NCBI RefSeq assembly: GCF_003002915.1
Contig: NZ_PVTG01000006.1
Coordinates: 1 to 64,000, forward strand
Length of the DNA: 64,000 nt
DNA from: Geodermatophilus tzadiensis
GTDB taxonomy: Bacteria; Actinomycetota; Actinomycetes; Mycobacteriales; Geodermatophilaceae
Reading direction: 5' to 3'
Made by a program: the position numbers and the translations under genes. Positions 6,488 to 61,762 of the stretch are shown one piece after another. Under the pieces are notes generated by a model. The model worked only from the letters and a program-made list of their open reading frames with translations, ran no database searches and was not told the origin of the DNA. The stretch's first letter is position 1, and each line of letters begins with the position of its first letter.

Positions 6488-6499
6488 ACCCCGGACCGC

Positions 6500-9213: not shown

Positions 9214-9222
9214 GCCGGTAGC

Positions 9223-11288: not shown

Positions 11289-11350
11289 CGCCCTGGGCGC
11301 GGGTGCCGCCCGCGGTCCCGGCCGCCGCGGGCATCGGCGACAATGGCCGC

Positions 11351-12145: not shown

Positions 12146-12174
12146 TTCCGGTCCTCTAGTCCCGGTCCTCTAGT
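12137..12174. repeat. Three copies of a 10-bp motif at 14-bp spacing containing CTAG stops
   Basis: GTCCTCTAGT occurs at 12137, 12151 and 12165, with near-identical spacers. The first copy holds the TAG stop of the DUF3027 gene and the third holds the TAG stop, on the other strand, of the DUF2530 gene. Confidence 0.9.
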
Positions 12175-12391: not shown

Positions 12392-12498
12392 GGGCCGACC
12401 CTAGGCGCACCTGTCGCACGAACGGCACGGGGCCGACACGCGGGTGTGGCACGCTGTCGCCGCTCGTCGCCCGGTTGCAGCAGTCCGCAGGAGCCCCC

Positions 12499-14019: not shown

Positions 14020-14051
14020 GGACGGCTAACGGTCCGGGTACGCTCCCCGCC

Positions 14052-15757: not shown

Positions 15758-15831
15758 CCCGGGCACCTGGCGGACGGCGCCTGCCCGACGTACCGTCGCG
15801 GCCACCGTCCCCCATGGCTCGACGGAGCGCC

Positions 15832-16793: not shown

Positions 16794-16812
16794 GCCCCGT
16801 CCGGCCGCGGGC

Positions 16813-47593: not shown

Positions 47594-47753
47594 CGTTGCG
47601 TTCCCACCTCCGCAGGTCCCGCGGCGCCGTTGCCGCGGGGTACGACGTGCTCCTCAGACGGTAACGCCTCGCGGCGCCAGGGGTTTCCCACGCGCCGGGG
47701 ATGTCACCCGGAGGTCGCGGTCGCCCAGGCGTCGCGGACGGTCGCGCAAGGGG

Positions 47754-48665: not shown

Positions 48666-48675
48666 CGTTCGCCGT

Positions 48676-48701
48676 CAAGTATCTCGATGTCAAGATGCTT
48701 G
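48676..48701. promoter_or_regulatory. Candidate MarR operator between the EamA and marR genes
   Basis: CAAGTATCT (48676-48684) and AGATGCTTG (48693-48701) form an inverted repeat with one mismatch. The centre, ATCTCGATGTCAAGAT (48681-48696), is close to the general MarR-type box TATCTTGA-TCAAGATA. It is 11 bases before the EamA start and 44 bases before the MarR start, ideal for repressing both. Confidence 0.65.
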
Positions 48702-48744
48702 GTGCCGTGCATCTCGCGGCCGTTCGATGTGGCAGGCTGGGGCC

Positions 48745-49263
48745 GTGACCGAGCGGGACGGCGTCGACGAGATCCGCGAGCAGTGGGCCGTGCAGCGGCC
48801 CGACCTCGACACGGAGGCCATGGCGGTGTTCGGGCGGATCTACCGGGCGGCGCGGCTGGCCGGCGACGTGCAGGAGCGCTGCTACGCCCGCTTCGGCATC
48901 ACCCGCGCCGACTTCGACGTCCTGGCGACCCTGCGGCGCGCGGCCGGGCCCGACGGGCTCTCCCCGGGGCGGCTGACGGCGGCACTGATGCTCAGCACCG
49001 GCGGGACGACCAGCCGGCTCGACCGGCTGGAGCGGGCCGGGCACCTCGTCCGCGTCCCCGATCCGGCCGACCGGCGGGCGCTGCTGGTCCGGCTGACCGA
49101 CAGCGGACGGGCGCTCGTCGACGAGGCGGTCACCGCCGGGCTCGCCGAGCAGCAGCGGATGCTCGCGGGCCTGCCTGCCGCCCGCCTGCGCCGGCTGGAC
49201 GACGACCTGCGCGACCTGCTCGCCTCGGTCGAGCGGCACGCGACCGAGAGCCGGGAGGACTGA
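48745..49263 (+). CDS. MarR family transcriptional regulator
   Basis: A 172-residue winged-helix regulator. Helical dimer region VFGRIYRAARLAGDVQERCY, recognition helices LSPGRLTAALMLSTGGTTSR, and wing with LVRVPDPADRRALLVRLTDS, including the DRR motif. A Cys (VQERCYARFG) occurs in the N-terminal helix, but no second redox pair is obvious. GTG at 48745 gives MTERDGVDEIREQWAVQRPD. The divergent EamA transporter and shared palindrome indicate it represses that exporter and itself (inferred). Methionine aminopeptidase follows at 8 bp. Confidence 0.92.
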   Translation: MTERDGVDEIREQWAVQRPDLDTEAMAVFGRIYRAARLAGDVQERCYARFGITRADFDVLATLRRAAGPDGLSPGRLTAALMLSTGGTTSRLDRLERAGHLVRVPDPADRRALLVRLTDSGRALVDEAVTAGLAEQQRMLAGLPAARLRRLDDDLRDLLASVERHATESRED

Positions 49264-49270
49264 GGCCACC

Positions 49271-50041
49271 GTGATCGAACTGCGCACACCGGGGGAGCTC
49301 GACGCCATGCGCGCGGCCGGGGCGGTGGTGGCCGACGTGCTCGCCGCCGTCCGGGCCGCGGCCGCCCCGGGTGTGCGGCTCAGCCAGCTCGACGGGGTGG
49401 CCCGGGACGTGCTGGCGGCCGCGGGGGCGACGTCCCCGTTCCTCGGCTACGCCCCGCTGCCGACCACCCCGCCGTTCCCCGGCGTGGTCTGCCTGTCGGT
49501 CAACGACGTCGCGCTGCACGGCATCCCCACCCCGCAGGTGCTCGAGGACGGCGACCTGCTCAGCGTGGACGCCGGCGCGACCCTCGACGGCTGGGTGGGC
49601 GACTCGGCGACCACCTTCGCCGTGGGCACCCCGAGCCCGGAGGACCTGCGGCTGGTGGACACCACGCAGCGGGCGCTGGAGGCGGGGATCGCCGCGGCCG
49701 TCGTCGGCAACCGGGTGGGCGACGTGTCGGCCGCGATCGCGGCGGTCGGCCGGGCCGGCGGGTGCGGCATCAACACCGACCAGGGCGGGCACGGCGTCGG
49801 CCGGTCGATGCACGAGCCGCCGAGCGTGCCCAACGAGGGGCGCGCCGGGCGCGGGGTGCCGCTGCGGGCCGGGCTGGTGATCGCGATCGAGCCGTGGTTC
49901 CTCGCCGGCGGCTCCGACGACTACCGGGTCGACGCCGACGGGTGGACCCTGCGCAGCGCCGACGGGAGCCGGGCCGCGCACGTCGAGCACACGGTCGCCG
50001 TCACCGAGGACGGCCCGCGCGTCCTGACCGCCCCGCGCTGA
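49271..50041 (+). CDS. map: Type I methionine aminopeptidase
   Basis: A 256-residue metalloprotease that removes the first Met from new proteins. The five metal ligands are in place: Asp in LLSVDAGATLDGW, Asp in GDSATTFAV, His in GGHGVGRSMHEPP, Glu in VIAIEPWFLAGGS and Glu in AAHVEHTVAV. VCLSVNDVALHGIPTPQVL contains the catalytic His. There is no N-terminal zinc-finger linker. GTG at 49271. It lies close behind the MarR gene on the same strand, possibly on the same transcript, though the functions are unrelated. A second copy elsewhere in the genome is likely, as in related species. Confidence 0.93.
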   Translation: MIELRTPGELDAMRAAGAVVADVLAAVRAAAAPGVRLSQLDGVARDVLAAAGATSPFLGYAPLPTTPPFPGVVCLSVNDVALHGIPTPQVLEDGDLLSVDAGATLDGWVGDSATTFAVGTPSPEDLRLVDTTQRALEAGIAAAVVGNRVGDVSAAIAAVGRAGGCGINTDQGGHGVGRSMHEPPSVPNEGRAGRGVPLRAGLVIAIEPWFLAGGSDDYRVDADGWTLRSADGSRAAHVEHTVAVTEDGPRVLTAPR

Positions 50042-50054
50042 CGCTGCGAGGCGG

Positions 50055-50537
50055 TCAGTCGCCGCGGGGTGCGGCCCGGTAGGCGCCTGCCGTCCCCCGC
50101 CAACCCGCCGGGCGGTGGGCGCGCGCCTGCTCGAGCTTCTCCTGGCGGCGCGCGAAGAGGACCGTGCCCACGAGGAAGAGTCCGGAGAGGATGAGCACGA
50201 CGGCGGTGAACGCGTTTACGAACGGCAGGTCCACCCCGAGCAGGGCCAGCACGCCGAGCGCGATCAGCACCAGGGCGGCCAGGACCGCCCCGGCCGCGCG
50301 CCACGGGCTCTTGGCGACCTCCTGCACCCCCTCCTGCGCCTTGTCCTTGGCGTAGTCGAGCGGTTTCCTCGCCCAGGAGAACCGGGTCGCCAGGACCGCC
50401 AGGCCGGCGGCGACCAGCACGAAGCCGGGGCCGGGCAGCACGAGCAGCGCGATGCCGGCGAGGGTCAGCAGGCCGCCGAGGACGGCGACGGCAACGGTCT
50501 TCACCGTGGGGTGGTGCCCACCCGGTGGGGGCGGCAT
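50055..50537 (-). CDS. PGPGW-motif membrane protein (TIGR02611-like)
   Basis: A 160-residue protein with two pairs of membrane helices: VAVAVLGGLLTLAGIALLVL around a PGPGF motif (near 35-39), then a basic amphipathic linker (RFSWARKPLDYAKDKAQEGV), and AVLAALVLIALGVLALLGVD plus FTAVVLILSGLFLVGTVLF. This is the PGPGW transmembrane family of actinobacteria, of unknown role. ATG at 50537 is the start; a GTG at 50504 right before helix 1 is possible. Convergent with map, with 13 bp between the stops. Confidence 0.82.
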   Translation of the reverse strand: MPPPPGGHHPTVKTVAVAVLGGLLTLAGIALLVLPGPGFVLVAAGLAVLATRFSWARKPLDYAKDKAQEGVQEVAKSPWRAAGAVLAALVLIALGVLALLGVDLPFVNAFTAVVLILSGLFLVGTVLFARRQEKLEQARAHRPAGWRGTAGAYRAAPRGD

Positions 50538-50627
50538 GCCGCAGGTGCCGTGCGGGCGGACGGTGCCGCTGTCCCCGGGTGCTGCGAGGCTGCGCCGGTG
50601 ACCCGACGCGGCGGACAGGAGGTCGAG

Positions 50628-51290
50628 GTGGGCGAGACGCCCCTGGCCGAGGTGGTGGCCGAACTGGCCGCGCTCGAGGACCCGCGGATGCGCGCGGTGA
50701 ACGAGCGGCACGGCGACGACCACGGGGTGAACCTCGGCCAGCTCCGCGGGCTCGCGAAGCGGCTCACGGCCCAGCAGGGGCTCGCTCGGCAGCTGTGGGC
50801 GACGGGCGACACCGCGGCGAGGCTGCTGGCGCTGCTGGTCTGCCGCCCGAAGCAGTTCGAGCGCGAGGAGCTGGACGCCATGCTGCGCGAGGCGCGGGCA
50901 CCCAAGGTGCACGACTGGCTCGTGAACTACGTGGTGAGGAAGAACCCGCACGCCGAGGCGCTCCGCCTGCTGTGGTCCGCCGACCCGGATCCCGTGGTCG
51001 CCAGTGCCGGCTGGGCGTTGACCACCGACCGGGTGGCGAGGAGGCCCGAGGGCCTCGACCTCGCAGGACTGCTCGACGTCATCGAGGCGGAGATGAAGGA
51101 CGCCCCGGAGCGCCTGCAGTGGGCGATGAACCACTGCCTGGCCCAGATCGGGATCGAGCACGCCGAGCACCGTGCACGGGCCATCGCCATCGGCGAACGC
51201 CTCGAGGTCCTGAAGGACCACCCGACCCCGCCCCACTGCACGTCCCCGTTCGCACCCGTCTGGATCACCGAGATCGTGCGCCGCCGGTAG
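50628..51290 (+). CDS. AlkD-like DNA alkylation repair protein
   Basis: A 220-residue all-helical protein of HEAT-like repeats: MRAVNERHGDDHGVNLGQLR, LAKRLTAQQGLARQLWATGD and DWLVNYVVRKNPHAEALRLL. These are the signatures of the AlkD/DNA alkylation repair family, which binds DNA and can remove bulky or charged alkyl adducts; the conserved Trp and Asp region is present as WLVNYVVRKNP. GTG at 50628 has AGGAGG five bases upstream and is preferred over GTG at 50598. It is the last core gene before the genomic island, 54 bp from the left att repeat. Confidence 0.85.
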   Translation: MGETPLAEVVAELAALEDPRMRAVNERHGDDHGVNLGQLRGLAKRLTAQQGLARQLWATGDTAARLLALLVCRPKQFEREELDAMLREARAPKVHDWLVNYVVRKNPHAEALRLLWSADPDPVVASAGWALTTDRVARRPEGLDLAGLLDVIEAEMKDAPERLQWAMNHCLAQIGIEHAEHRARAIAIGERLEVLKDHPTPPHCTSPFAPVWITEIVRRR

Positions 51291-51344
51291 GCGGTCTGAC
51301 GCTCACGTCCGGTCTGCGGGTGCGCGGGGACAGGCAGTGCCACG

Positions 51345-51379
51345 GGTGCCCCCGGCAGGATTCGAACCTGCGACACACG
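51345..51379. repeat. Left attachment site (partial tRNA-Arg 3' end)
   Basis: Bases are identical to the 3' part (T-arm, acceptor strand) of tRNA-Arg(CCT) at 60454-60488. Similarity continues with mismatches to about 51392 through the anticodon region, where the loop reads GGATTCCTGAAGC instead of the intact GGTTTCCTAAACC. Confidence 0.9.
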
Positions 51380-51763
51380 CTTCAGGAATCCGTATCAGGG
51401 CCTTGCCGAGCGTGCGCTCCTCAGCCCGATTGCGTCTCTGAGCTGCGAAGATGTTCGACAAGTGACGGTTGCCATCGGCGCTCAGCGGACGTTCTGCTGA
51501 CTGACTGACTGCTGACAGGAAGCCGCCGGAGGGCTCCGCGTCCCTGCGGGATGGGCCTTCGGCCCACCCTTCCCCCGGCCCGCTGCAGCCGGAGGGGGCC
51601 GGTTGTGGGGATCGAAGGGGAGTGCCGGCCCACGGGACCGGTCCGCTCCAGTAGGTCGAGCCCCTGCGGCCCGTCGAGGTCCTGATGGCTGTAGGTGGGG
51701 CTGCCTGGTCCCGCAGCGGAACCGGGCCGTCCTGTGCGGGCGCTCCGTCCCGACCCGAGCATC
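51380..51763. other. Left end of the island: no gene recognised
   Basis: No reading frame with coding character. A G/C-rich stretch around 51556-51600 includes GGGCCTTCGGCCC, a small hairpin. Stops occur in all frames. Confidence 0.5.
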
Positions 51764-51769
51764 AGCCCT

Positions 51770-52155
51770 CGTCTGACGAGCCCAGCGTCCTACTCGTCTG
51801 CGTGCACAGCGCCGGCCGGCCCAGATGGCCGCCGGTCGGCTGCGCCACCTCGCCGAAGACGCCGTCGAGGCCCGCTCAGCCGGCTTCATGCCTGCCGACG
51901 GGGTCACTTCCGCTGCTCTCAAGGCCACGGCCGACGTCGGTATCGACAACGCCGACCAGTGTCCCAAGATGCTCACCGCTGAAGCCGCCGAGACCTTCGA
52001 TGTCGTCATCACCATGCGCTGCGGCGACGCCTGCCTAGGAGTTTCCGGACGATCGCCACCCCAACTGAGCCCCTCGAGGACCCTGCCGGCAGAGAGGTCG
52101 AGGCCGTGCGCCCATCGGCGACGACCTCGAGCGCGGGATTCGCGGTCTGGCCGCC
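51770..52155 (+). pseudogene. Arsenate reductase (ArsC, low-molecular-weight phosphatase type) relic
   Basis: The pieces of a thioredoxin- or mycothiol-linked arsenate reductase are spread over three frames. PSVLLVCVHSAGR (P-loop, CxxNxxR-like) is followed, after a one-base deletion, by MAAGRLRHLAEDAVEARSAG, VGIDNADQCPKMLTAEAAET and FDVVITMRCGDAC. Then come EDPAGREVEAVRP in a second frame and DDLERGIRGLAAEW in a third. At least three frameshifts make it nonfunctional. Intact relatives are about 135 residues. It shows that the island once carried arsenic-resistance cargo. Confidence 0.85.
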
Positions 52156-52176
52156 GAGTGGTGCCCGTTCGGCAGC

Positions 52177-52560
52177 TCAGCGGATGACGCGGACCTCGAC
52201 GGCCAGGTCATCGGCCCAGTCCCGCCAGATGCGGTCGGTGGTGAATGCCGGGCTCGACAGGCTGCGCGCGAGGGCCAGGCAGACGCGATCCGCGAGGCTC
52301 AGCCCGGAGCGGTGCCGGTAGAAGGACGCCGCCAGGCGCGCATCGAGGCGCCCGAAGTGGCTCACCGTGATCCCCAGCGCGTCGAGTTCGCCGTCGACGT
52401 CTTCGGCTGGCACACCCAGGCGTGCTGCCTTCTGGAGGACTTCGGCGTAGTTGACCGAGCTGATGGTCGCGTCGTTGCTGGCCGCTTCGCGAGCGACGAC
52501 GTCCCAGCCGGGTTCGGTGTTGATCAGGGCCAGTAGGGCAGAGGCATCGAGGACGATCAC
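52177..52560 (-). CDS. vapC: PIN-domain toxin (VapC-like)
   Basis: A 127-residue PIN-domain ribonuclease. The acidic catalytic residues are at MIVLDASALLALINTEPGWD (Asp), ISSVNYAEVLQKAARLG (Glu), LSLADRVCLALARSL (Asp) and FTTDRIWRDW (Asp). Such toxins cleave tRNA or rRNA and block growth when freed from their antitoxin. GTG at 52560 overlaps the stop of the small antitoxin-like gene upstream (GTGA). This is among the few intact genes in the island and may help keep it in the chromosome. Confidence 0.92.
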   Translation of the reverse strand: MIVLDASALLALINTEPGWDVVAREAASNDATISSVNYAEVLQKAARLGVPAEDVDGELDALGITVSHFGRLDARLAASFYRHRSGLSLADRVCLALARSLSSPAFTTDRIWRDWADDLAVEVRVIR

Positions 52561-52742
52561 TCGCCGCTCGACTGAGAATCCTCGGCTGCTGCCTCGAGGC
52601 GCCGCTCAGCGACGAGGTCATCGGCCAGGCTCACGCGGTCGCCGCCGGCCTGCCCGAAGCGGCTCTGGAGGCGTTCGAGGGCAGCTCGACGGCGAGGGTC
52701 CCACCCGCGCAGGGGGTCCTCGACCGTGGTGCTCTCGCTCAC
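52557..52742 (-). CDS. vapB: VapB-like antitoxin
   Basis: A 61-residue protein directly upstream of and overlapping the toxin gene. It contains EDPLRGWDPRRRAALERLQS (basic, helical) and a C-terminal acidic region with SLADDLVAERRLEAAAEDSQ, the layout of VapB-like antitoxins: DNA-binding N-terminus, toxin-wrapping C-terminus. GTG at 52742 or 52748 can start it; a longer frame upstream lacks coding character. No family assignment is certain, so the call rests on position, size and overlap. Confidence 0.72.
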   Translation of the reverse strand: MSESTTVEDPLRGWDPRRRAALERLQSRFGQAGGDRVSLADDLVAERRLEAAAEDSQSSGE

Positions 52743-52748
52743 GATCAC

Positions 52749-53097
52749 CAGCGTAATGGCAGGTGAAGGAGGTGTGCCTTCACCTGTCGAAGGATCGGCG
52801 GCCGCAGGGTCTGATGCACCGCAGCCCGTTACTCCCCTCCGCGCCATGATGATCTGCTCGTTGGGGTCTGCGCCAAGGCACTACCGGCCGGCCTCAACCC
52901 CTTGCACACACGTCCGTCTTGAAGTACTGGACGCCGCGCACGCGGCCTGACCGCCTCTCCCAGCCGAAGTGCTCTGCGACCTGCGCGGATCCCGTCCCCG
53001 GCGGCGCAATGACGACGTCCCGCAAGGGATCCCCGTCGGTGACGGAGGCCCAAGGCCTTGTACCTGTCCCTGAAGGCGGCCTATGGGACACCTCACG
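52749..53097. other. Island gap with palindromic repeat, no gene recognised
   Basis: Short open frames exist on both strands, one on the minus strand reading RDVVIAPPGTGSAQVAEHFG and RVRGVQYFKTDV, which may be a relic, but I recognise no family. Copy 1 of the island palindrome lies at 53065-53090. Confidence 0.35.
53065..53090 (+). repeat. Island palindrome, copy 1
   Basis: TGTCCC and GGGACA arms flank TGAAGGCGGCCTAT. One of five related copies in the island. Confidence 0.8.
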
Positions 53098-53294
53098 GAT
53101 GAAGGGCTTGCTTGGTCCAGTCAACGCTGGTGGACAGCACGAGGGCGATGCCCTCGAGCACGTCCCGGTCGGAGGTGCGGGCCGTCTGGCGCGGCCAGCA
53201 CGGCCGGCTTGCGGGGTGGGATCAGCGGCTTGACCAGCGCCCAGAGCCCGTCACTAATCAGCCGCGGCGGCGGGGAAGACGCCGACGGAGACAT
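53098..53294 (-). pseudogene. IS5-type transposase N-terminal fragment
   Basis: Reading the minus strand from ATG at 53294 gives LISDGLWALVKPLIPPRKPA, the N-terminal signature of IS5-family transposases (DUF4096 region). After a frameshift, another frame continues RTSDRDVLEGIALVLSTSVD, as expected further along. The rest of the transposase and the terminal inverted repeats are missing. It marks past transposon activity in the island. Confidence 0.7.
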
Positions 53295-53478
53295 GCCCGG
53301 CCCCCTGCGCTCATGGCTCGGATGCCTACAGAGCCCGACGACCTACGTGCGCAACGTCTTGTGAGTCATGCCTGGAGGGATCACGTTCGGTGGCCTTCGT
53401 CCCTTCTGCCGGGTGGGTCGAGGTCGCACCCTTACCCGAGACAGTGTTCGTCCGCGTCACGGTTCGGAGGTTGGCATC

Positions 53479-53730
53479 ATGATCCGTCGTCTCGCGGCTG
53501 TTGCAGTTGGCGCAGCGTTCATCGCCTTATTGGCCACTCCCGCGATGGCCGCTCCTGACAGCGCCTCGTGTATCGGGCAGATCTCTTCCTCCCTCGCTCA
53601 GGACGGCAGAGAGTTCGGCCAGTTGGTGTCGAGTGAGGCTCAGGCACCTGAGACTGAAGCTGAGGGCGTCGGCGCATTCGTGTCCTCCGCTGCTCAGTAC
53701 ACCGGAGACTGCTCCGAGCTACTGGAGTGA
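53479..53730 (+). CDS. Small secreted protein with signal peptide
   Basis: An 83-residue protein. The signal peptide MIRRLAAVAVGAAFIALLAT ends at PAMAA-PDSA, a good signal peptidase I site (AMA). The mature part of about 57 residues has two Cys (SASCIGQ and GDCSELLE) that could form one disulfide, and is Ser/Glu/Gln-rich. ATG has GGAGG upstream (GGAGGTTGGCATCATG). No family is recognised; small Cys-pair secreted proteins like this are common in actinobacteria. Confidence 0.68.
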   Translation: MIRRLAAVAVGAAFIALLATPAMAAPDSASCIGQISSSLAQDGREFGQLVSSEAQAPETEAEGVGAFVSSAAQYTGDCSELLE

Positions 53731-53995
53731 CACCTCGCTGACCAGAGCATGGCATCTCACCGGCGCCGAGGCCGTACAGCCATCCCTCTCCGGTGACGGC
53801 GGACCGAGGTCTCCGAGCTGTCCCTGAAGGCGGCTCTAGGGACAGCCAGCGCCGTGGCTTTATGAACGGAACGGCCACGACGATGGCGATGACGACTGCA
53901 ATGCCCACAATGATGGTGACGGGATCCGAGGTGCTGCCCGAGCCGCCGTTACGGCTCGCAAGGAGCCCGGTCCCGGCCATGATCCCGCTTGTCAT
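53519..53995 (-). CDS. Doubtful small single-pass membrane protein
   Basis: From ATG at 53995 the frame encodes one clear membrane helix (VTIIVGIAVVIAIVVAVPFI) by residue 45 and a basic stop-transfer (KPRRW). The rest of the 158 residues runs through palindrome copy 2 and antisense to the secreted-protein gene, and lacks coding character. Likely a shorter gene whose true stop was lost when the repeat inserted, or chance. Confidence 0.28.
   Translation of the reverse strand: MTSGIMAGTGLLASRNGGSGSTSDPVTIIVGIAVVIAIVVAVPFIKPRRWLSLEPPSGTARRPRSAVTGEGWLYGLGAGEMPCSGQRGVTPVARSSLRCTEQRRTRMRRRPQLQSQVPEPHSTPTGRTLCRPERGRKRSARYTRRCQERPSREWPIRR
53819..53844 (+). repeat. Island palindrome, copy 2
   Basis: TGTCCC and GGGACA arms flank TGAAGGCGGCTCTA, differing from copy 1 at three positions of the spacer. 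Confidence 0.8.
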
Positions 53996-54033
53996 GGGCA
54001 GACACCGGGGCCGCGCGCCGTGAGACTGACGGG

Positions 54034-54927
54034 ATGGCCAGATCGTCCCCGCGCATCCCTGGGTTCTCCAGCGATGCCGCCCGCGCCCGGTTCCTGGCGG
54101 TGTACGACCGGGTCCTGCAACGGCTCTGGCCGGTACCGGTGCAGGCCGAGGACATCGCGACCAGCGCGGGCACCGTCCGCATCTACCGGGCCGGCCCCCA
54201 CGGGGAGGATCCGTACGTCCTGCTGCCGATGCTCGGTTGGAACGCGCTGGCCTGGCACCGGTGGATGGGGCGCTTCGGTGACCGTTCGGGCATCGCGGTG
54301 GACCCGTTCGGCGAACCCGGTCACTCGGTGCAGACCCGGCCGGTGACCAGCCGCGACGGGCAGGCCGGGTGGGTCGAGGAGCTGCTCGCCGGCATCGGCG
54401 CCCAGCGGGCGCACCTGGTGGGGGCGTCCTGGGGTGGCTACCTCGCCGTCGAGCACGAGTTGCGCCACCCCGGCCGGGTCGCGGCAATCACCCTCATCGA
54501 GCCGGCCGGGCTGAGAACACTGCCGTGGCGGTTCTGGCTGTGGCTGGTCCCCAGCGGCCTGGCCGCCCTGCTGCTACCGGCTCCGCTGCGCCGGTGGGCA
54601 GCCCGCCGGCTGCCCAACGCCACCCTGGCCGAGGATGAGCTCCTCACGGTGCTGCGCGCCTCGCTGAGGTACCGGCGCCCGGACAACCAGACGGTGGTCT
54701 TCACCGATCAGGAGCTGGCCGGCGTTCACGTGCCGGTGCAGGCGCTCTTCGGTAGCCGCAGCCCGCTGCGTCCCGTCGGCGTCGACCGGCTGCGCGCCGC
54801 GGTGCCGGGCTGGCGGGTCGAAGTCATCCCCGGTGCCGGTCACACCCTGGTCATGGATGCCGAGGACCAGGTGATCGACCGCGTCCTCGCCTTCCCCCCG
54901 CCAGCCCCCACCGGAGAGCGGTCCTGA
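54034..54927 (+). CDS. Alpha/beta hydrolase
   Basis: A 297-residue alpha/beta hydrolase. The nucleophile elbow is VGASWGGYLAVE (Ser in G-x-S-x-G), the oxyanion region YVLLPMLGWNALAWHRWMGR, and the catalytic His is in IPGAGHTLVMDAEDQ; an acidic residue sits in FGSRSPLRPVGVDRL. It lacks a signal peptide. The cap is helical. ATG at 54034 is preferred; a GTG at 53989 is in frame. The gene is intact and its composition resembles the core genome, unlike its surroundings. Confidence 0.88.
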   Translation: MARSSPRIPGFSSDAARARFLAVYDRVLQRLWPVPVQAEDIATSAGTVRIYRAGPHGEDPYVLLPMLGWNALAWHRWMGRFGDRSGIAVDPFGEPGHSVQTRPVTSRDGQAGWVEELLAGIGAQRAHLVGASWGGYLAVEHELRHPGRVAAITLIEPAGLRTLPWRFWLWLVPSGLAALLLPAPLRRWAARRLPNATLAEDELLTVLRASLRYRRPDNQTVVFTDQELAGVHVPVQALFGSRSPLRPVGVDRLRAAVPGWRVEVIPGAGHTLVMDAEDQVIDRVLAFPPPAPTGERS

Positions 54928-54998
54928 CCGCCCCCGAGCAGAGGTCCCACGCGCTCCCACAAGACGCCCGCCCGGGAGGGATGGTCCTCGTCAACACA

Positions 54999-55024
54999 TG
55001 GCCCTGAAGGGGGCCTATGGGTCA
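54999..55024 (+). repeat. Island palindrome, copy 3
   Basis: TGGCCC and GGGTCA arms flank TGAAGGGGGCCTAT. Less regular than copies 1 and 2, but the same length and spacer pattern. Confidence 0.65.
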
Positions 55025-55098
55025 CCGGCCGCGGCTCGCCGCCAGCTGCTCTGGCAGGCGCCACACCTGCTGGCTCCTACCGGCGCTTCGCCGAAAGC

Positions 55099-55158
55099 GG
55101 GTCGTCCGGAGTAGAACCGGAACGTATGGCTCGATCCTCTGCCGTTGAGCTACGACCC
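55099..55158 (-). pseudogene. tRNA-like sequence (truncated tRNA relic)
   Basis: On the minus strand a 7-bp acceptor-like stem (GGGTCGT/ACGACCC) encloses a D-arm-like AGCTCAACGGCAGAGG and a T-arm-like CCGGTTCTACTCCGG with loop TTCTACT. The whole is only 60 bases because the anticodon and variable arm are reduced to about 15 bases. It may be a defective tRNA of the element or another integration scar. Confidence 0.45.
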
Positions 55159-55168
55159 TCTTCCCTCG

Positions 55169-55318
55169 TCAGAGGGTGCGGTTGACTTCGACCGCCTTTC
55201 GCAACGCAATCAGCTCACCACGGACCTTTCCGGTTCCAAGTTGAACCGCGAGTGCGATGATGCCGACCTGCAGGGCCAGACCGATGAGGAGCAGGATGAG
55301 GAATCCGCCTGTGTTCAC
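55169..55318 (-). CDS. Small single-pass membrane protein (tentative)
   Basis: A 49-residue protein MNTGGFLILLLIGLALQVGI then IALAVQLGTGKVRGELIALR, ending AVEVNRTL: one membrane helix followed by a basic helix. GTG at 55318 has GGGAG 9-10 bases upstream. It looks like a genuine tiny membrane protein but has no recognised family; reading from 55366 adds 16 hydrophilic residues. Confidence 0.45.
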   Translation of the reverse strand: MNTGGFLILLLIGLALQVGIIALAVQLGTGKVRGELIALRKAVEVNRTL

Positions 55319-55529
55319 TTCTTCTGTTCTCCCTAAGTAACGGCGAGGGCGACTGTCCTGGGACACTTCGGTTGGCCGACGTCATCACTCAAGTCGAGAG
55401 ACAGGGTCAGCTTCGGTCCGATCGACGTGCGTACCCCCGGGGGCTTGGCCCCGGGTCGCTGACGTCCTTGACTGGCCGCCTCCTCGACCTTCAGACGGCA
55501 CATCCTCGGCCCTAGCCGTCCGCCTGGCG

Positions 55530-55556
55530 TGTCCCAATGTGGGCCGCTCTGCGACA
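55530..55556 (-). repeat. Island palindrome, copy 5
   Basis: TGTCCC and GCGACA arms flank AATGTGGGCCGCTCT on the + strand; in opposite orientation to copies 1-3. Confidence 0.65.
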
Positions 55557-55585
55557 CCGCCGGCACGTGGCGCTAGCGTCCGACG

Positions 55586-55980
55586 ATGCCCATGGACGAT
55601 GCCGCGCACGCCACTGCACTCGCCCAGGAGCTCCTCGGACAATTCTTCGACCAGCTCTGCGTAGGCGCGGGCGATGTCCAGCTCCGCTTCTCTCACGTGA
55701 CCGTCTCCCTCTGGTCGACGATCGGCGTCTCAACCGGCGATGACGCTCCCGTTCAGCCGTACAGCGTCAGCGGGGTAGCCCTGCTCCTGCCGCTGCTCAA
55801 CGGAGAAGTGACTGCAGCGGACATAGACCCCAGCGGGACGCTGACGATCACGCTGGGCGGCGTGACCATCTGCTGCGGGAGCGACCCGGCTACGAGTCGT
55901 GGTCCTACGACGGCCGTGATGGCGAGAAGGTCGTCTGCAGGCCGGGCGGCGACTTGGCCATCTGGAGCGCAGCCCGATAA
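55586..55980 (+). pseudogene. DUF6188-like protein, frameshifted
   Basis: From ATG at 55586 the frame encodes QELLGQFFDQLCVGAGDVQL, then LWSTIGVSTGDD, VALLLPLLNGEVTAADIDPS and GTLTITLGGVTI, typical of a small DUF6188-like actinobacterial protein. After about 55890 the conserved end, YESWSYDGRDGEKVVCRPGG and DLAIWSAAR with TAA at 55978-55980, is found in another frame. One base has been lost near GCGACCCGGCTAC. Family function unknown. Confidence 0.72.
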
Positions 55981-55984
55981 CAGG

Positions 55985-56011
55985 TGTCCCATAGTGGGCC
56001 GCTTAGAGACA
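55985..56011 (-). repeat. Island palindrome, copy 4
   Basis: TGTCCC and GAGACA arms flank ATAGTGGGCCGCTTA on the + strand; it lies five bases after the DUF6188-like stop. Confidence 0.75.
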
Positions 56012-56248
56012 GCAGCTACGCGCCGTGAGGACAACTGCAGGGCGGACCCATTCGGACTCAGTCGGCCGGTCGAACTCGGTCCACTTGACCCGACTGCCGT
56101 CGGACCCTGTGGACCCGATGCGGAGATCGCCGCCCTCGACGCTGTGGCGGGTGGGGACTCGATCAGATCGAGGCCCCGATCGCGGCCGCGGGTCACATCG
56201 CGCACGGATCCGTCGTGATGGCCCATCCGGGCCGGGCATCATGGCCCT
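56012..56248. other. Island gap, no gene recognised
   Basis: Stops in all frames; no motif beyond the end of palindrome copy 4. The 3' end lies next to the CheB-like fragment. Confidence 0.4.
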
Positions 56249-56518
56249 GTGGTTGCGCAGGACACGGCGAAGCCGTCGGCCGGGGACCGCTATCGCGCCC
56301 TGGTGGTCGGCACTTCGATGGGAGGGGTGGAGGCGCTCCAGGCGGTCCTGGGCAGCCTGCGGACTGAGAGCGGGGTGCCAGTTCTCGTCGCGCAGCACTC
56401 CGGGGCGAGTTCGTGGTGGCTGGACAAGGTGCTGGCTCGCACCTCGCCGCCCGACCGGTTCGCCGCCACCTACGGCGCCACGTTCGGCGTCCTGCCCAGC
56501 CACACCCTGCGCACCTGA
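56249..56518 (+). pseudogene. CheB-like fragment fused to an AraC C-terminal tail
   Basis: An 89-codon frame from GTG at 56249. Residues 15-70 (YRALVVGTSMGGVEALQAVL and VPVLVAQHSGASSWW) are the start of a CheB methylesterase catalytic domain with its Ser (GTSMGG) and His (QHSG). The last 20 residues (DRFAATYGATFGVLPSHTLR plus T) are instead the end of an AraC regulator, almost the same as the end of the next gene. A deletion or recombination has joined the two, so neither domain is complete. Confidence 0.75.
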
Positions 56519-56551
56519 GCGCCGGGGCACGAGCCATTGGAGGAACGCGTC

Positions 56552-57526
56552 ATGGCCCCTGGGACCCCCATCCCACCGCGGCGCTTCCGGTACGCCACGG
56601 CCGACCGGATGGAGGCCAGCGACTTCCTCGACCGCGCCTACGGGGCACGGCTGCGGCTGGGCGGCTTCCCTGACACCGGTCCGCTGGTGACCCTCGACCA
56701 GGTACAGGCCGGAGCGCTCACCCTCGTCGACTTCCGGCTGGCGTCCGATCTCGTCTTCGAGGCCACGGGCCAGGACGACGTCATGATCAACACCGTCCTC
56801 GACGGGAGCATGGTCTACGACAGCGGCAAGGCCGGCCACAGCTTCCGGCCCGGAGACGTCGGCATCGGCAACCACCCCCACATGAAGGACCTGGTGGCCC
56901 GGTCCCACGCCCTGCACCTGCACACCGTCGGCCTGCCGGCCTCCCTGCTCACCGAGGTGGCCGGCCGCGACCCCGCGCAGGACGGCTCGTCGTGGGAGCT
57001 GCTGTCCCTGCGGCCCGTCGACGGCGGCGACGGACGGTGGCGCCGGACCACCCGATTGGTCAACGACCTGCTCGCCGAGCCCGAGACCGCCGCGTCGCCG
57101 CTGCTGCTCGGGCCGGTCGCGCGACTGCTGGCCGCCACCGTCCTGACGATCTTCCCCAACACCGCCGTCGCCGAGCCGGCGGCCGCGGACAGCCTCGACG
57201 CCCACCCCGGCACGTTGCGGCGCGCAACCGACTTCATCGACTCGCATCCCGACCTCGACATCAGCGTCGCCGACATTGCCCGCGCCGCCTCCGTCACCCC
57301 GCGCGCGGTGCAAATGGCCTTCCGCCGGCACCTGGACACCACGCCGACCGCCTACCTCCGCCAGGTGCGGCTGGCGCAGGCGCACCGGCAGCTGTGCGAC
57401 GCCGCCCCCGGCGACGGGGTCACCGTGACCGCCGTCGCCGCCCGCTGGGGGTTCACCCCCAGCCGGTTCACCGAGCGCTACCGCGCCGCCTACGGCGTGC
57501 TGCCCAGCCACACCCTGCGCACCTGA
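56552..57526 (+). CDS. AraC family transcriptional regulator
   Basis: A 324-residue regulator. The N-terminal half (FDFR-like stretch LTLVDFRLASDLVFEATGQD, then SMVYDSGKAGHSFRPGDVGI) is the AraC-type binding domain found in aromatic-substance regulators. The C-terminal half has two helix-turn-helix motifs: DISVADIARAASVTPRAVQM with FRRHLDTTPTAYLRQVRLAQ, and VTVTAVAARWGFTPSRFTER. ATG at 56552 has GGAGGA upstream; a TTG at 56537 is also in frame. Its ligand and targets are unknown. Intact despite the surrounding decay. Confidence 0.88.
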   Translation: MAPGTPIPPRRFRYATADRMEASDFLDRAYGARLRLGGFPDTGPLVTLDQVQAGALTLVDFRLASDLVFEATGQDDVMINTVLDGSMVYDSGKAGHSFRPGDVGIGNHPHMKDLVARSHALHLHTVGLPASLLTEVAGRDPAQDGSSWELLSLRPVDGGDGRWRRTTRLVNDLLAEPETAASPLLLGPVARLLAATVLTIFPNTAVAEPAAADSLDAHPGTLRRATDFIDSHPDLDISVADIARAASVTPRAVQMAFRRHLDTTPTAYLRQVRLAQAHRQLCDAAPGDGVTVTAVAARWGFTPSRFTERYRAAYGVLPSHTLRT

Positions 57527-57860
57527 CCCGCCCTGTGCGGCCAGCAGCCGGCGGGCCTCCAGGCCCCGGCGCAGCTGCTCCACCCGCTGCCGGCCGGCGC
57601 GGGCCTCGACGACGCGCGGGGCCGCGGAGCGCCGGGCCGACTGGGCCGCCGCGGCGCGACGCGCCGCCACCTCGGCCCGGTCCCTGGGCGCCGCGCGCGG
57701 GGACCCCGCCCGCGCTCAGGGGCGCCCCGCCTGTCCGAGACGACCGACCGCGCGTGACCATCCGCCATCAGCGGACGCGCCGGCCGGGGGCGGCGCCGAT
57801 CGACCGGTCACAGGGCTGCGCATCGTGGAGGTGTCAGTCCGCCTGGCCGGGACCTGCCGG
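57527..57860. other. Island gap after the AraC gene, no gene recognised
   Basis: The minus strand has an Arg/Ala-rich stretch (ARRAAAAQSARRSAAPRVVE) that continues without a stop into antisense of the AraC gene, so it may be a truncated relic. Nothing can be supported. Confidence 0.35.
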
Positions 57861-58139
57861 TCAGTGCGTGGCGGAACCGGGCGCGGCAGCGCGCGTCCAC
57901 ATCTGCAGCGCCAGGCGGCGGTGGTCGTCGGCTCGCGCGCGCGCCCACGCCGCCCGGTCCCCGTACGGCGCGGGCGAGTCAGCGATGCCGACGACGGCGT
58001 CCGCGGCGGCAGCGATGCCGTCGTAGCTCAACGCCACGGCTGCGACGGTCGTGGCGGCCGCCCGGATCGCCTCGGCGGCCTGCTGGACAGCAGCGGCATG
58101 CCGCTGAGCAAGCAGCAATCGCTCCGGCGCCACCGTCAT
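57861..58139 (-). CDS. Small helical hypothetical protein
   Basis: A 92-residue Ala-rich helical protein beginning MTVAPERLLLAQRHAAAVQQ and ending WTRAAAPGSATH. It has no signal peptide or metal motif. ATG at 58139 starts it; the frame extends upstream to 58235 without coding character. No family recognised. It may be a real island gene, as codon use is regular. Confidence 0.45.
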   Translation of the reverse strand: MTVAPERLLLAQRHAAAVQQAAEAIRAAATTVAAVALSYDGIAAAADAVVGIADSPAPYGDRAAWARARADDHRRLALQMWTRAAAPGSATH

Positions 58140-58444
58140 GACCCGATCGTGAGCGGGGGACGAATGGTCGGCTAGCACCGCAGGCGAAGGCTGAGACGTG
58201 CGGATCCGCCCCCGCGCGAAGCGGCGCCCGTCCATCTCGGTCCTGCGGCGAGTGACATGCGGTGACAGCTCGCCCTGGGGCAGCTGGGCTCTCGGTCCCT
58301 CCTCCGGAGGTGCGCAGCGAGCACCCCCAGGATCTCGTCAGTTCAGGGGCGTCGCTCTCGGCCGCATCGAGTCGATCGTCGTCGCCGCTCAGCGACGCAC
58401 CCGAACAGTGTGCAGAGGCGGCTGGACGGCGGGACGCCGGCGGT
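58140..58444. other. Island gap, no gene recognised
   Basis: Short frames on both strands without coding character; no repeat or hairpin noticed. Confidence 0.35.
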
Positions 58445-58785
58445 ATGGCATCGAAGGACCGGCACGCTGGTGCGGACGGCCGGAGGAAGGACGACGTGCC
58501 TCGGGAAGCGTGGCGGCAGCGCCAGCTCGCTGCGGAGCTGGACGAGCGGCGAAAGCAGGTCGGCGAATCGCTCGCTGCGACCGCCGGCGACATCGCCGCA
58601 ACCGAGGGAGGATCGCGAACACGCTCGACGCGGTGGCGAGAACCCGACCGGACAGAGCTGCTCACCTCCATGAGCCGGCCGAACACGCGCGCGCAAGAGC
58701 ACATCGACACGTCGAACGCGGAGCGGCGTCACGAACGTGCCCCGTCCGACTGTCCGGAGCAGTAGCGCCGCTGCAAGCGCCATGA
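58445..58785 (+). pseudogene. Coiled-coil hypothetical protein, frameshifted
   Basis: From ATG at 58445 the frame reads MASKDRHAGADGRRKDDVPR, then EAWRQRQLAAELDERRKQVG and ESLAATAGDIAATE, a coiled-coil pattern. Near 58612 the pattern moves to another frame: RIANTLDAVARTRPDRAAHL, HEPAEHARARAHRHVERG. A single indel explains it. The original small coiled-coil protein has no assigned function. Confidence 0.5.
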
Positions 58786-59301
58786 GGAAAGAGAGCTGAG
58801 ACGCCGGGCTCTTCCTCCTCAGACGGGGACCGGGAGGAATGCAGTGCACGACGGCGACTGACCGCCCCTGCCGTGACCGTCCCAGAGGTCGCCTCGAGTG
58901 ACACGTCCGTCGGCGTTCGAGAGCCGTTGAGCTCACCGGCGGAGCACCGGAGAACCTCCAGGAGGCTCCTGTCTGTCCCTGGTGGTCGGGCCGGTCGAGC
59001 CGCCAGGGTCGGTCGCCGACATGGCCGGCATCGCCCACAGATCGGGCGGGACGCACCGGCCGCGCGGCCATGACGCGACCTGGCAGAGAGCGCGCCCGCA
59101 AGGCTGGAGAAGCACGGAAGAAGTGGCGTGTAGCTGGTCCTCGGGTCACAGCTGGGCTGCAGGCACGGCGCCGTCCACAGCTCCTCGGCCATCCATAGAT
59201 CTGGGCCGAAGCCGCTCACCTACCCAGTCGTCGTATCTCGTCGATCGGCTGTCGGACGTCGCCGACGGCTTCTACGAGCCTGGGAGCTGAGGTACTGCCA
59301 G
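58786..59301. other. Region before the integrase, no gene recognised
   Basis: About 500 bases without a convincing frame on either strand. It may hold the remnants of an excisionase or control gene, but none can be recognised. Confidence 0.4.
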
Positions 59302-60422
59302 ATGGCCACCATCCAGGACCGCTGGCACCGCAGGAACCGTCAGACGGGAGCCCTGGAGCGAACTGCGCTCTACGGCACGGGCAAGCGCTACGGAGTCCAC
59401 TTCCGCGACCCGTCCGGCCGGGAGGTCACCAAGGCCTTCGGTCGCAAGGTCGATGCCCAGCGGTGGCTCAACGAGCAGACGGTCGCGCTGGTCCTGGGGA
59501 CGTTCGTGCACCTTGGTTCACGGGCCGCTCGCACCTCGCGCCCAAGACGTTGGCCTGCTATCGCTCACTTCTCCGGGCGAGGGTGCTCCCTCGGTGGGAG
59601 AACGTCCCGGTCGGCCGAGTGGCGCACGGTGACGTGGTCGCGTGGGTGGCCGGCATGCGCGCCGACGGCCTATCCGCCAGCCGGACCCGCCAGGCGTACC
59701 ACCTCCTGACGTCGATGCCCGACGCCGCGGGCAAGGACGGCAGGCTGGCGCGCAACGCGGCCGCCGGCGTCGACCTCCCGCGTCTGCCGACCACCGATCG
59801 GCGGTACCTGCCCCACGGGCAGCTCGCCGACCTGGCCGACCACTGCGGGCGGCACCGCCTGCTCGTCCTGGTCCTCGGCTACAGCGGGCTCCGCTGGGGC
59901 GAGGCGGCCGCGCTGCGGGTCCGGCGGGTCGACCGGCTCCGCGGCCGCATCGAGGTGGCCGAGTCGGTGACCGAGGCCGAGGGGCGCTCGGTCTTCGGGC
60001 CGCCCAAGTCCCACGCGCGCCGCTGGGTGCCGGTGCGGCGGTTCCTGCGCCAGGACCTGGCCAGCCACCTGGCGGGACGGGACCCGGAGGAGTTCGTCTT
60101 CCCCTCGAGGACCGGCGGGCCGCTGCGGGTCGGCAACTTCCGACGCGACTGGTTCGACCGCGCGGCCGTCGTCGTGGGGCTGGCCGGCCTCGTGCCGCAC
60201 GAGCTCCGGCACACCGCGGCCTCGCTCGCCATCGCGTCCGGCGCCTCCATCAAGGGCGTCCAATCGATGCTCGGGCACGCATCGGCGGCGATGACTCTCG
60301 ACCGCTACGGCCACCTCTTCGGCGACGAGCTGGACGCCGTCGCGGAGCGGATGGACGCCGCTCGTGCGGACTGGATGCGGACTGAAGGCTCCGGCGGGGG
60401 CGACCGCCGGTCAGCGGACTGA
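59302..60422 (+). pseudogene. int: Tyrosine integrase, frameshifted
   Basis: Two frames make up one integrase. The first, from ATG at 59302 (MATIQDRWHRRNRQTGALER to LNEQTVALVLGTFVH), holds the arm-binding N-terminus. The second, which joins near 59513, holds the core-binding domain (HLAPKTLACYRSLLRARVLP) and the full catalytic domain: Arg in GYSGLRWGEAAALRV, Lys in GPPKSHARRW, HELRHTAASLAI, LGHASAAMTLDRYGHLF with the catalytic Tyr. A short segment after GTFVH also appears to be missing. The catalytic residues survive, but a complete protein cannot be made without a frameshift. Confidence 0.88.
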
Positions 60423-60453
60423 GCTGATCAGTGCGCTGACCAGCGGTTCCACT

Positions 60454-60488
60454 GGTGCCCCCGGCAGGATTCGAACCTGCGACACACG
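60454..60488. repeat. Right attachment site within tRNA-Arg(CCT)
   Basis: It covers the acceptor 3' strand, T-arm and part of the variable region of the intact tRNA and is identical to 51345-51379. It is the direct repeat that marks the integration event. Confidence 0.9.
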
Positions 60489-60528
60489 GTTTAGGAAACC
60501 GATGCTCTATCCCCTGAGCTACGGGGGC
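60456..60528 (-). tRNA. tRNA-Arg (anticodon CCT)
   Basis: A 73-base cloverleaf on the minus strand. Acceptor GCCCCCG pairs with CGGGGGC, D-arm GCTC...GAGC, anticodon loop TTCCTAA gives CCT, T-arm GCAGG-TTCGAAT-CCTGC, discriminator A. CCA is encoded next (60453-60455). It reads AGG codons. One T-T mismatch sits at the base of the anticodon stem. The 3' half is duplicated at the other end of the island. Confidence 0.96.
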
Positions 60529-60611
60529 TCGCCGGCCGCCGGCCGGGTGGGGACTGCCGGACGAGGTTAGCGGGGCTGCCCGCGGCGCCTCCGGCTGGCT
60601 ACCGTCGGTTC

Positions 60612-60977
60612 ATGGTGGTCCTGCTGGCCGAGCTGCTGGTCCTCCTGCTCCTGGCCGGCCTGCTGCTGTACGGGCTGGGCGTGTGGTCGGCCCGCCCCCC
60701 CGTCCCTCCGGGTGTCCGGCAGCCCGCGCGCCGGCAGCGCCGCTCCGGCGCCGTCCTGGCCCGGTGGGTGCCGGCGCACGACGAGGCCGACGGGCGGACG
60801 CGGGTGCTGCTGCGCCGCGCCTACCTCGGCCCGGACGGGCTGCCGGTCGTGCTCGAGGACCGGGTCTACACGGCCTTCGCGTCGGACGACCCGGCCTGGG
60901 AGGCGCGCTTCACCGAGGCGATGTCCGCCGCGCGGTTCCGCTGCTCGTACCTCAACGCCGAGGAGTCCGCGGGCTGA
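60612..60977 (+). CDS. Membrane-anchored hypothetical protein
   Basis: A 121-residue protein with one N-terminal hydrophobic helix (VVLLAELLVLLLLAGLLLYG) and a soluble domain (SGAVLARWVPAHDEADGRTR, then VLLRRAYLGPDGLPVVLEDR). ATG at 60612. No family recognised. Its last 112 bases are antisense to the end of the alpha/beta hydrolase gene. Confidence 0.72.
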   Translation: MVVLLAELLVLLLLAGLLLYGLGVWSARPPVPPGVRQPARRQRRSGAVLARWVPAHDEADGRTRVLLRRAYLGPDGLPVVLEDRVYTAFASDDPAWEARFTEAMSAARFRCSYLNAEESAG

Positions 60978-61762
60978 GCGGCCTGTGCCACCGTCTCCTC
61001 GACCAGCCGCACGATCGTCCGCGGCCGGTCCGACTGCGGCGCGTGCCCGGCCCACAGCAGTGGCACGAACCGTGAGCCGGGGACCAGCGGCAGGTAGCGC
61101 ACCGTCTGACCCGAGGAGATCCAGTCGGCCACGCCCTGCACGAGGGTGACCGGGCAGTCGATGCGGTCCAGGCCGCGCGGGACGTCGAGCAGCAGGCCCC
61201 ACAGCAGCGTGCGCCACCAGTCGCGGGCGTCGGCGAACCCCTCGCGGGCGCCGATCGCCTCCTCGGCGGAGGAGGCCCACGGGCGGGCCTTGAGCGGTGC
61301 CAGCAGCGCGGCCCGGCCCACCGCCGAGCGGGACAGCGGCCCGATCAGCGGCGCGCCGGTGCGCATGACCACCCGGGCGAGCGCCATGCCGGTGCCCTGC
61401 ACGACCCGCTCCGGCGGCACGTTGAGCCCCGACGGCGCGATCGCGACCACCGAGCGTGCGCGGCCGCGGCGCGCCAGCTCGATCGCCACCCGGGCGCCGA
61501 GGGAATTACCCAGGACGTGCACCCGGCCGACGCCCTCGCCGTCGAGGGTCCGCTCCACGGCGTCGGTGACCGCGGCGACGGTCGGCCGCTCCTCCAGGGC
61601 CGGCGAGCGGCCCACCCCGGGCAGGTCGACGTCGAGGACGTCGAAGCGCTCGGCCAGCGCGGGGAGGACCGCGGCGAAGTCGCGGCGCGAGCTGCCCCAG
61701 CCGTGCAGGAGCAGGAGGGCTTCGCCGGAGCCGGCTCGGGTGCAGGACAGCGTCTCGGTCAC
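60866..61762 (-). CDS. Alpha/beta hydrolase
   Basis: A 298-residue hydrolase. LLLLHGWGSSRRDFAAVL is the oxyanion region, VHVLGNSLGARVAIELA the nucleophile elbow (Ser in G-N-S-L-G), VQGVADWISSGQTV carries the acidic residue and LLWAGHAPQSDRP the His. It resembles esterases or C-C bond hydrolases; the substrate is unknown. GTG at 61762. The last 35 residues (LRYEQRNRAADIASVKRAS) lie antisense to the neighbouring gene and may be beyond the functional fold. Confidence 0.88.
   Translation of the reverse strand: MTETLSCTRAGSGEALLLLHGWGSSRRDFAAVLPALAERFDVLDVDLPGVGRSPALEERPTVAAVTDAVERTLDGEGVGRVHVLGNSLGARVAIELARRGRARSVVAIAPSGLNVPPERVVQGTGMALARVVMRTGAPLIGPLSRSAVGRAALLAPLKARPWASSAEEAIGAREGFADARDWWRTLLWGLLLDVPRGLDRIDCPVTLVQGVADWISSGQTVRYLPLVPGSRFVPLLWAGHAPQSDRPRTIVRLVEETVAQAAQPADSSALRYEQRNRAADIASVKRASQAGSSDAKAV

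Follow-up and report, generated by a model that had tools for sequence, protein, structure and literature searches.

How did a 9.1-kb stretch of sparsely coding DNA come to lie against a tRNA-Arg(CCT) gene in Geodermatophilus tzadiensis, and can it still leave? The stretch occupies positions 51345-60488 of the first 64,000 nt of contig C6 (213 kb), which we refer to as the window (a w before a coordinate marks the same numbering), in a genome of 4.87 Mb in 36 contigs. The original prediction took it for a genomic island that had entered by site-specific recombination at the tRNA gene and had become immobile when its integrase frame broke. We examined the island against a set of 26 Geodermatophilus genomes, i.e. 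the source genome (G000) and 25 relatives, among them G. amargosae (G001), G. telluris (G002), G. dictyosporus (G006), G. nigrescens (G010), G. poikilotrophus (G015), and G. chilensis (G016). The island is real, decayed, probably immobile, and probably a composite relic, ordinary in kind and richer than the first reading of it. Our working hypothesis, which we regard as reasonably likely, is that it is the immobile remnant of at least two integrative elements that shared the 3'-end site of tRNA-Arg(CCT).

The borders of the island bear the marks of integration. The tRNA-Arg(CCT) gene is the sole tRNA called in the window, and its 3' end recurs at the opposite end of the island as an exact 35-bp direct repeat, as had been noted; the similarity of these two attachment (att) copies reaches ~50 bp in all, with mismatches beyond the exact 35 bp. 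Because the next-longest exact match to this tRNA elsewhere in the window is only 11 bp, the repeat is not a product of chance. Outside its own position, the left copy matches the CCT tRNA best (90% over 59 bp), ahead of another tRNA place (90% over 42 bp), which speaks against an unrelated tRNA as its source; scored as a tRNA in Rfam it reaches 24.8 bits, below the gathering score of 29, and an Rfam search over 51000-61000 gave nothing except the tRNA above the gathering score. Only 30 bp separate the tRNA from the end of a tyrosine integrase gene, and this gene together with the att pair supports the predicted entry by site-specific recombination at tRNA-Arg(CCT).

The predicted decay is equally evident. 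Based on codon-score gene calls, the coding fraction of the island is 0.38 compared with 0.89-0.99 in 85 overlapping left-flank windows of the island's length (0.80 in the short right flank of 3.5 kb), and its GC content is 70.8% compared with 74.7-78.3% in the same 85 windows. Of the six or more broken genes that had been proposed, three are supported, namely the integrase, a low-molecular-weight phosphatase fragment, and a CheB fragment; a fourth, the start of an IS4/5-family transposase gene, is weak (E=0.029), and the others lack a Pfam match (10 further island frames had none at E≤1 and five other island frames had none at E≤0.1).

The integrase was correctly described as broken. It is present as two overlapping frames and lacks 40 bp after ~59511 when aligned with the G. 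nigrescens frame, which is open over 386 aa and 91% identical to it. The frame 3' of the deletion is still open and has a ratio of nonsynonymous to synonymous divergence (dN/dS) of 0.23-0.24 against G. nigrescens (P=4e-8 for constraint); because this downstream frame is open and constrained, the break looks recent. The corresponding genes of G. dictyosporus (5' end lost and a frameshift) and G. telluris (more than half of the gene lost) are also damaged. In a tree of 29 integrase rows with support from the Shimodaira-Hasegawa-like approximate likelihood ratio test (SH-aLRT), a branch with SH-aLRT 99 separates the 11 rows at tRNA-Arg(CCT) from all others, and 11 rows at tRNA-Ala(TGC) (SH-aLRT 100) and four at tRNA-Met (SH-aLRT 91) form other groups; the ungrouped rows are L147 (wrong or partial frame, very long branch), L140 (no tRNA label), and L161 (the sole tRNA-Arg(CCG) row).

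Across the genus, tRNA-Arg(CCT) is a hotspot for such integrases. This tRNA is matched in all 26 genomes, least well in G018 (92% over 77 bp). Sorting the stretches around it by tblastn and open frames (detection limit E≤1e-5), we found a homologous integrase beside the tRNA to be open in seven genomes (G003, G005, G010, G012, G015, G023, and G024) and broken or reduced to a remnant in eight (the window, G001, G002, G006, G013, G016, G022, and G025); none was found in the remaining 11 at this limit, although G008 still resembles the integrase end at the nucleotide level, and a distant integrase match (29%) lies farther from the tRNA in G018. A second att copy lies on the tRNA's contig in 10 genomes, i.e. 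the window and nine relatives, and G025, outside these 10, has a shorter 37-bp att match (92%). The check that had been proposed for the island, an AlkD-like gene directly next to an uninterrupted tRNA in relatives, failed in all 25 same-genus relatives. The region to the left of the island (47600-51345) is itself variable: the AlkD-like gene is unmatched in G. telluris and G. dictyosporus, and ~1.2 kb between the photolyase region and the EamA transporter in these two species is missing from the window. An empty and an occupied site were found elsewhere in the genus: G004 has a 243-aa gene next to the tRNA, and its counterpart in G010 (77% identical) is next to the left att, demonstrating insertion at this site in relatives.

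The elements at this hotspot differ in gene content. Those of G012, G015, and G024 have a TrwC relaxase-helicase frame of 1190-1208 aa together with an integrase frame of 368-370 aa, and G023 has kept only the end of the relaxase. Excisionase-like genes were found in the loci of eight relatives; in G012, G015, G023, and G024 they adjoin the integrase, and Pfam assigns three of these to HTH_17; in G010 and G006 they are on the other strand, 230-420 bp inward of the left att; and G003 and G005 have weaker relatives (33-38%). Of the transfer-apparatus families only TraG-D_C, a coupling-protein family, was searched for, and it occurred in two of six genomes (G012 and G024), in both far from the island; the TrwC-bearing elements of the G012/G015/G024 type therefore look mobilizable rather than self-transmissible, as judged from the part of the frames that was scanned. 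The window has no match at E≤1e-3 to the excisionase-like genes of the relatives or to the TrwC protein of G024, and the sole PF08751 match of the source genome is on contig C14 and not in the island. At three of the nine outer att sites examined the flanking DNA is an integrase-end remnant (G006, G012, and G015; best z 12.8-13.5), i.e. elements have accreted in tandem at this tRNA.

With these element types in hand, we compared the two ends of the island, and they resemble different types. The right arm, on the tRNA side, is nearest to G. nigrescens (z 64), followed by G. telluris and G. dictyosporus (z 51-52) and most other CCT-type loci (z 9-30), with no similarity in G018 and G025. The left arm was tested with the repeat included, over ~100 bp, and over 125 bp, i.e. 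up to a short folded element that we call the cloverleaf. Over 125 bp it is most similar to the TrwC-type arms of G023, G024, and G015, more weakly to those of G012 (z 4.9), G025 (z 4.2), G. nigrescens (z 4.1), and G. dictyosporus (z 3.3), and unlike those of G022, G003, and G018 (z 0.7-2.3). Of the 10 genomes that have two att copies, four (G012, G015, G023, and G024) combine the cloverleaf with a relaxase gene or a remnant of one; the cloverleaf is also in the window and is absent from G003, G006, G010, G018, and G022.

The account that this comparison bears on most directly is the one implied by the original prediction, in which one element inserted once, its left end merely diverged, and its integrase broke later. 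The island indeed has one att pair, one integrase, and no internal att copy, and the TrwC-type and G. nigrescens-type left arms are weakly alike, with the arm of the window weakly similar to both. Several further observations weigh against a composite origin. Over ~100 bp, the left arm reached only z 4.6-5.8 for G023/G024/G015 compared with 4.0 for G. dictyosporus and 0.4 for G. nigrescens and G012, so that the contrast is one of degree and not of kind; moreover, lengthening the arm to 125 bp also raised G. nigrescens from z 0.4 to 4.1, which lowered our confidence in a composite. The cloverleaf of the window could be cargo, because extra copies occur inside the cargo of other elements and the hotspot stretches of G007 and G025 carry one without a listed relaxase; it also lies 202 bp from the outer att end compared with 285-312 bp elsewhere. 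Finally, the resemblance to an integrase end outside the left att of the window is only weak (best z 3.6). On the other side, G. nigrescens and G. dictyosporus share a left end of 1.3 kb, excisionase gene included, at 89% identity, and yet the window, despite its closely similar integrase frame, shares only the att core of this region, and the islands of both species lack the cloverleaf. Thus, site-specific insertion stands, and a single insertion is doubtful because the two ends resemble different element types; a lone att pair is no proof of a single insertion.

We therefore favor a composite relic and suggest the following history. The left end (att copy, inner arm, and cloverleaf) would have descended from an integrative mobilizable element (IME) with a TrwC relaxase and the right end (integrase and tRNA-side arm) from an element of the G. 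nigrescens type. The two would most likely have stood in tandem first, as in three relatives; the middle would then have been deleted, fusing the two elements and removing the relaxase gene as well as the excisionase gene, which is a left-end gene in the G. nigrescens type; and the 40-bp deletion would have broken the integrase afterwards. Because the integrase is broken, the island would no longer be able to excise by its own means.

A composite relic of this kind is compatible with a second alternative, in which the island does not excise itself and may move in trans with the help of an incoming tRNA-Arg(CCT)-specific integrase, since both att copies remain. Their cores are intact over 35 bp, and open CCT-type integrase frames exist in seven of the 26 genomes; nevertheless, the left att departs from the tRNA past 35 bp while the elements with an open integrase mostly match over 43-51 bp, and the only other integrase listed in the source genome (E≤1e-60) sits at tRNA-Met, and we consider mobility of this kind unlikely. 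That the left repeat is a remnant of an unrelated tRNA or a chance duplication in 9 kb of ordinary chromosome is highly improbable even though part of the 3' end is common to other tRNA genes, as this is contradicted by the genome matches of the repeat described above, by a GC content and a coding fraction outside those of all 85 left-flank windows, and by the same arrangement in nine relatives.

The cloverleaf at the left end proved to be widespread. It consists of a closing stem and three short hairpins, and the window has a copy damaged in its 5' half that was recovered by a covariance model (R1) built without it. A DNA search identified at least 63 places in 18 of the 26 genomes, the window copy included; four genomes list exactly seven places each, so these counts may be lower bounds. 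Of the 63 listed places, 37 lie within 40 kb of a TrwC match on the same contig, and all but one of these 37 are upstream of the TrwC gene on the same strand; the other 26 have no TrwC match within 40 kb, several being on short contigs. We sorted the 56 TrwC places (from 57 rows, of which two were parts of one gene and were counted together) by E-value into 13 of a long class (E under 1e-80) and 43 others including fragments: cloverleaf copies belong to 24 of the 43 and to none of the 13, and because copies within one element are not independent, it is these 24 separate TrwC places that contribute. Among 11 cloverleaf loci checked for a tRNA and a second att copy, five had no tRNA in the stretch, one had tRNA-Met without a second copy, and five had tRNA-Ala, four of these with a second att copy of 41-43 bp and the cloverleaf core 285-297 bp inside it. 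In the tRNA-Arg elements of G015, G023, and G024 the distance to att is 310-312 bp. Two further loci resemble parts of this picture. G025 has a similar small relic (L101, ~16795-18370) with a 62-residue integrase fragment beside the tRNA and a weak cloverleaf copy (42 bits) ~180 bp inside its partial att. The source genome has a second element at tRNA-Met(CAT) on contig C14 (~4400-16830; L201) that carries a cloverleaf copy and matches to a TrwC relaxase and to a related integrase; it yielded no second att copy.

The fold is supported by conservation of its pairs. In 26 copies, 93.3% of cells pair compared with at most 51% when partners are slid, a measure biased towards the fold, since one of the tested copies supplied the structure; covariation was 0.093 compared with 0.056 in shuffles (0/500 as high), and the number of further pair types was not unusual (160/500 shuffles). 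When six plasmid copies were added, 97.1% of cells were paired over the inner 20 pairs and covariation was 0.132 compared with 0.035 (0/500 shuffles), with four pairs changed on both sides compared with 2.6 expected from shuffles (40/500). Taken as a single copy, the 108-bp stretch in the window has an ordinary folding energy (z -0.26 and -0.32), so that it is the conserved pairing that argues for the fold. A search of two cloverleaf copies against Rfam gave nothing above the gathering score.

The plasmid copies come from a search with the core that matched 11 plasmid records at E≤0.01, every one from an actinobacterial genus. We inspected six of these; the remaining five are four from Cutibacterium and one from Nocardia farcinica. 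In three Micromonospora-type plasmids, the core precedes a mobC-like/relaxase operon by 0.2 kb and is on the strand opposite to it (annotated as MobC in pVMKU of Micromonospora maris, and with the second operon gene annotated as relaxase in the other two), and a plasmid of Rhodococcus antarcticus, typed as non-mobilizable, has a similarly laid-out operon of hypothetical proteins at that place. In Arthrobacter p3132-53, one small gene separates the core from mobC, 0.8 kb away, and in the Glutamicibacter plasmid it shares the strand of mobF and precedes it by 7.9 kb, an arrangement like that of the chromosomal elements. The plasmid cores show compensatory changes. No phage record matched the core, and the exact 24-base core was not found in viral contigs.

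We lean towards the cloverleaf being a cis-acting conjugation site of actinobacterial elements, i.e. a single-strand origin, a single-strand promoter, or part of an origin of transfer (oriT), a function predicted from fold, pair conservation, and position; with a similarly slight preference we suggest that it would be common to the TrwC-type elements of Geodermatophilus and to MOBP and MOBF plasmids of other actinobacterial orders. Three other functions were considered. An oriT of a single relaxase type is less likely, because the core is present on plasmids typed MOBP and MOBF. A promoter of the next gene is inconsistent with several copies that face oppositely oriented genes. A cassette-type recombination site like attC was rejected, because the shared segment does not start at a repeat and the attL-side copy keeps a near-fixed distance; this idea had been prompted by three loci in which the same major facilitator superfamily (MFS) transporter gene, >98% identical, lies between two cloverleaf copies (L090 4799-7232, L110 10823-13254, and L126 5195-8096), and by one cloverleaf copy in G024 that resembles a hybrid of two types.

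Features of the island and its borders, with positions on the 64,000-nt window
Feature	Position	Strand	Basis or remark
AlkD-like gene, outside left att	50598..51290	+	adjoins tRNA-Arg(CCT) in 0/25 relatives
Left att core, 35-bp exact repeat; likeness extends to ~51395 with mismatches	51345..51379	+	alignment
Left inner arm, 66-68% identical to attL arms of TrwC-type G023/G024/G015	51396..51520	+	z 7.5-8.6
Damaged copy of cloverleaf-type folded element	51521..51585	+	model R1, 61 bits, E=8.2e-14 in window
Fragment of low-molecular-weight phosphotyrosine phosphatase gene (within frame)	51825..52187	+	PF01451 profile 28-85 of 144
VapC-like PIN toxin gene	52177..52560	-	Pfam match
VapB-like partner of VapC	52557..52742	-	no Pfam match
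Possible IS4/5-family transposase remnant (weak)	53121..53294	-	PF13340 E=0.029
Hydrolase segment, gene 54034-54927	53912..55029	+	alpha/beta hydrolase family match
CheB fragment fused in frame to copy of AraC gene tail	56249..56518	+	CheB profile 2-48 of 174
AraC-type regulator, intact, under purifying selection	56537..57526	+	Pfam, dN/dS
Tyrosine integrase, broken by 40-bp deletion; groups with integrases adjoining tRNA-Arg(CCT)	59302..60422	+	Pfam, tree, alignment
tRNA-Arg(CCT), insertion target; 3' end is right att copy	60453..60528	-	tRNA call
Right att core, 35-bp exact repeat within tRNA	60454..60488	+	exact repeat

In the original prediction, the intact genes of the cargo between these ends may have been kept for benefit. 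VapC (PIN), the alpha/beta hydrolase, and AraC match the families assigned to them; VapB and the small secreted protein have no Pfam match, and the latter also had no tblastn match (E≤1e-5) in the loci of relatives compared. A benefit is supported for AraC only, which is under clear purifying selection (dN/dS 0.34, P=0.0012); neutrality was not rejected for the hydrolase (0.51, P=0.065), VapC (0.47, or 0.57 by a second alignment, P=0.081), or VapB (0.33, P=0.089). The VapBC pair is ~94% identical at the nucleotide level in G. dictyosporus, within the outer part of its hotspot. The hydrolase segment is 95% identical to a different locus of G. telluris, and in both the window and G. telluris intact or degenerate 26-bp palindromes were seen by eye near both of its ends. 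In the window, all palindromes of this TGTCCC...GGGACA type (26-27 bp, some degenerate) fall inside the island (53065-53090, 53819-53844, 54999-55024, 55530-55556, and 55985-56011), two of them near the hydrolase-segment ends, and the first type occurs at 30 places in 14 of the 26 genomes with at most three mismatches. The AraC gene tail is duplicated with 83% identity (56450-56518 and 57458-57526). PADLOC detected no convincing defence system among 10 cargo proteins, two from the window and eight from G022/G023/G024; its matches were helicase-type ones on the TrwC protein and one weak LmuA.

On the tRNA side, the segment w56148-58818 is ~95% identical in G. telluris, where it adjoins the same tRNA. 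That locus has integrase remnants beside the tRNA and no second att copy, and therefore the shared segment cannot leave by the att route there. Synonymous divergence is lower in the shared segment (32/403 sites) than in the flanks (358/2447; Fisher P=1.6e-4), which suggests a later exchange of this segment; the synonymous divergence (dS) of the flank genes spans 0.075-0.212 and overlaps that of AraC (0.076).

Among known systems, the island is most readily compared with cis-mobilizable elements (CIMEs) and decayed elements in tandem accretion as described in PMC5704250, which keep their att sites, lose their transfer genes, and form tandem arrays at one tRNA. As in a CIME, attL and attR are both retained, and the integration and transfer functions are lost; unlike in a CIME, the ends resemble different element types and the integrase is broken rather than absent. 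An IME would have its own relaxase and a functional integrase with an excisionase, and here the gene complement points away from one: the integrase carries the 40-bp deletion, and relaxase and excisionase are unmatched. This also separates the island from the TrwC-relaxase mobilizable elements of G012, G015, and G024, with which it shares the left-end att arm, the cloverleaf, and a CCT-group integrase at the tRNA. According to the 2017 review PMC5704250 (section 3.1), a MobF relaxase is not encoded by any canonical IME known, and relative to that review the intact TrwC-bearing relatives would be new. Actinomycete integrative and conjugative elements (AICEs), in the account of PMC3218068, likewise combine a tRNA site with a tyrosine integrase, and the excisionase of the relatives and the tandem insertions in tRNA-Arg are further likenesses; AICEs differ in their FtsK/TraB and Rep domains, which were not among the island frames scanned, a part of all possible frames. 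The cloverleaf, as folded and oriented DNA on conjugative elements, resembles the Frpo/ssi single-strand promoters (PMC11541004) and sso1 of ICEBs1 (PMC4595007), although their fold appears different. Among the titles that literature searches listed, we found none on this tRNA hotspot in Geodermatophilus and none specific to the cloverleaf.

The island illustrates how a tRNA hotspot can convert mobile elements into fixed composite relics. The cloverleaf, whose function we infer from sequence, is the more novel result: it is tied by strand and position to short-class TrwC genes in Geodermatophilus, and its core lies near mobilization genes on plasmids of three other actinobacterial orders. As a sequence marker it can point to mobilizable elements and to what is left of them, and it could help to test how actinobacteria prime or express transferred single strands.

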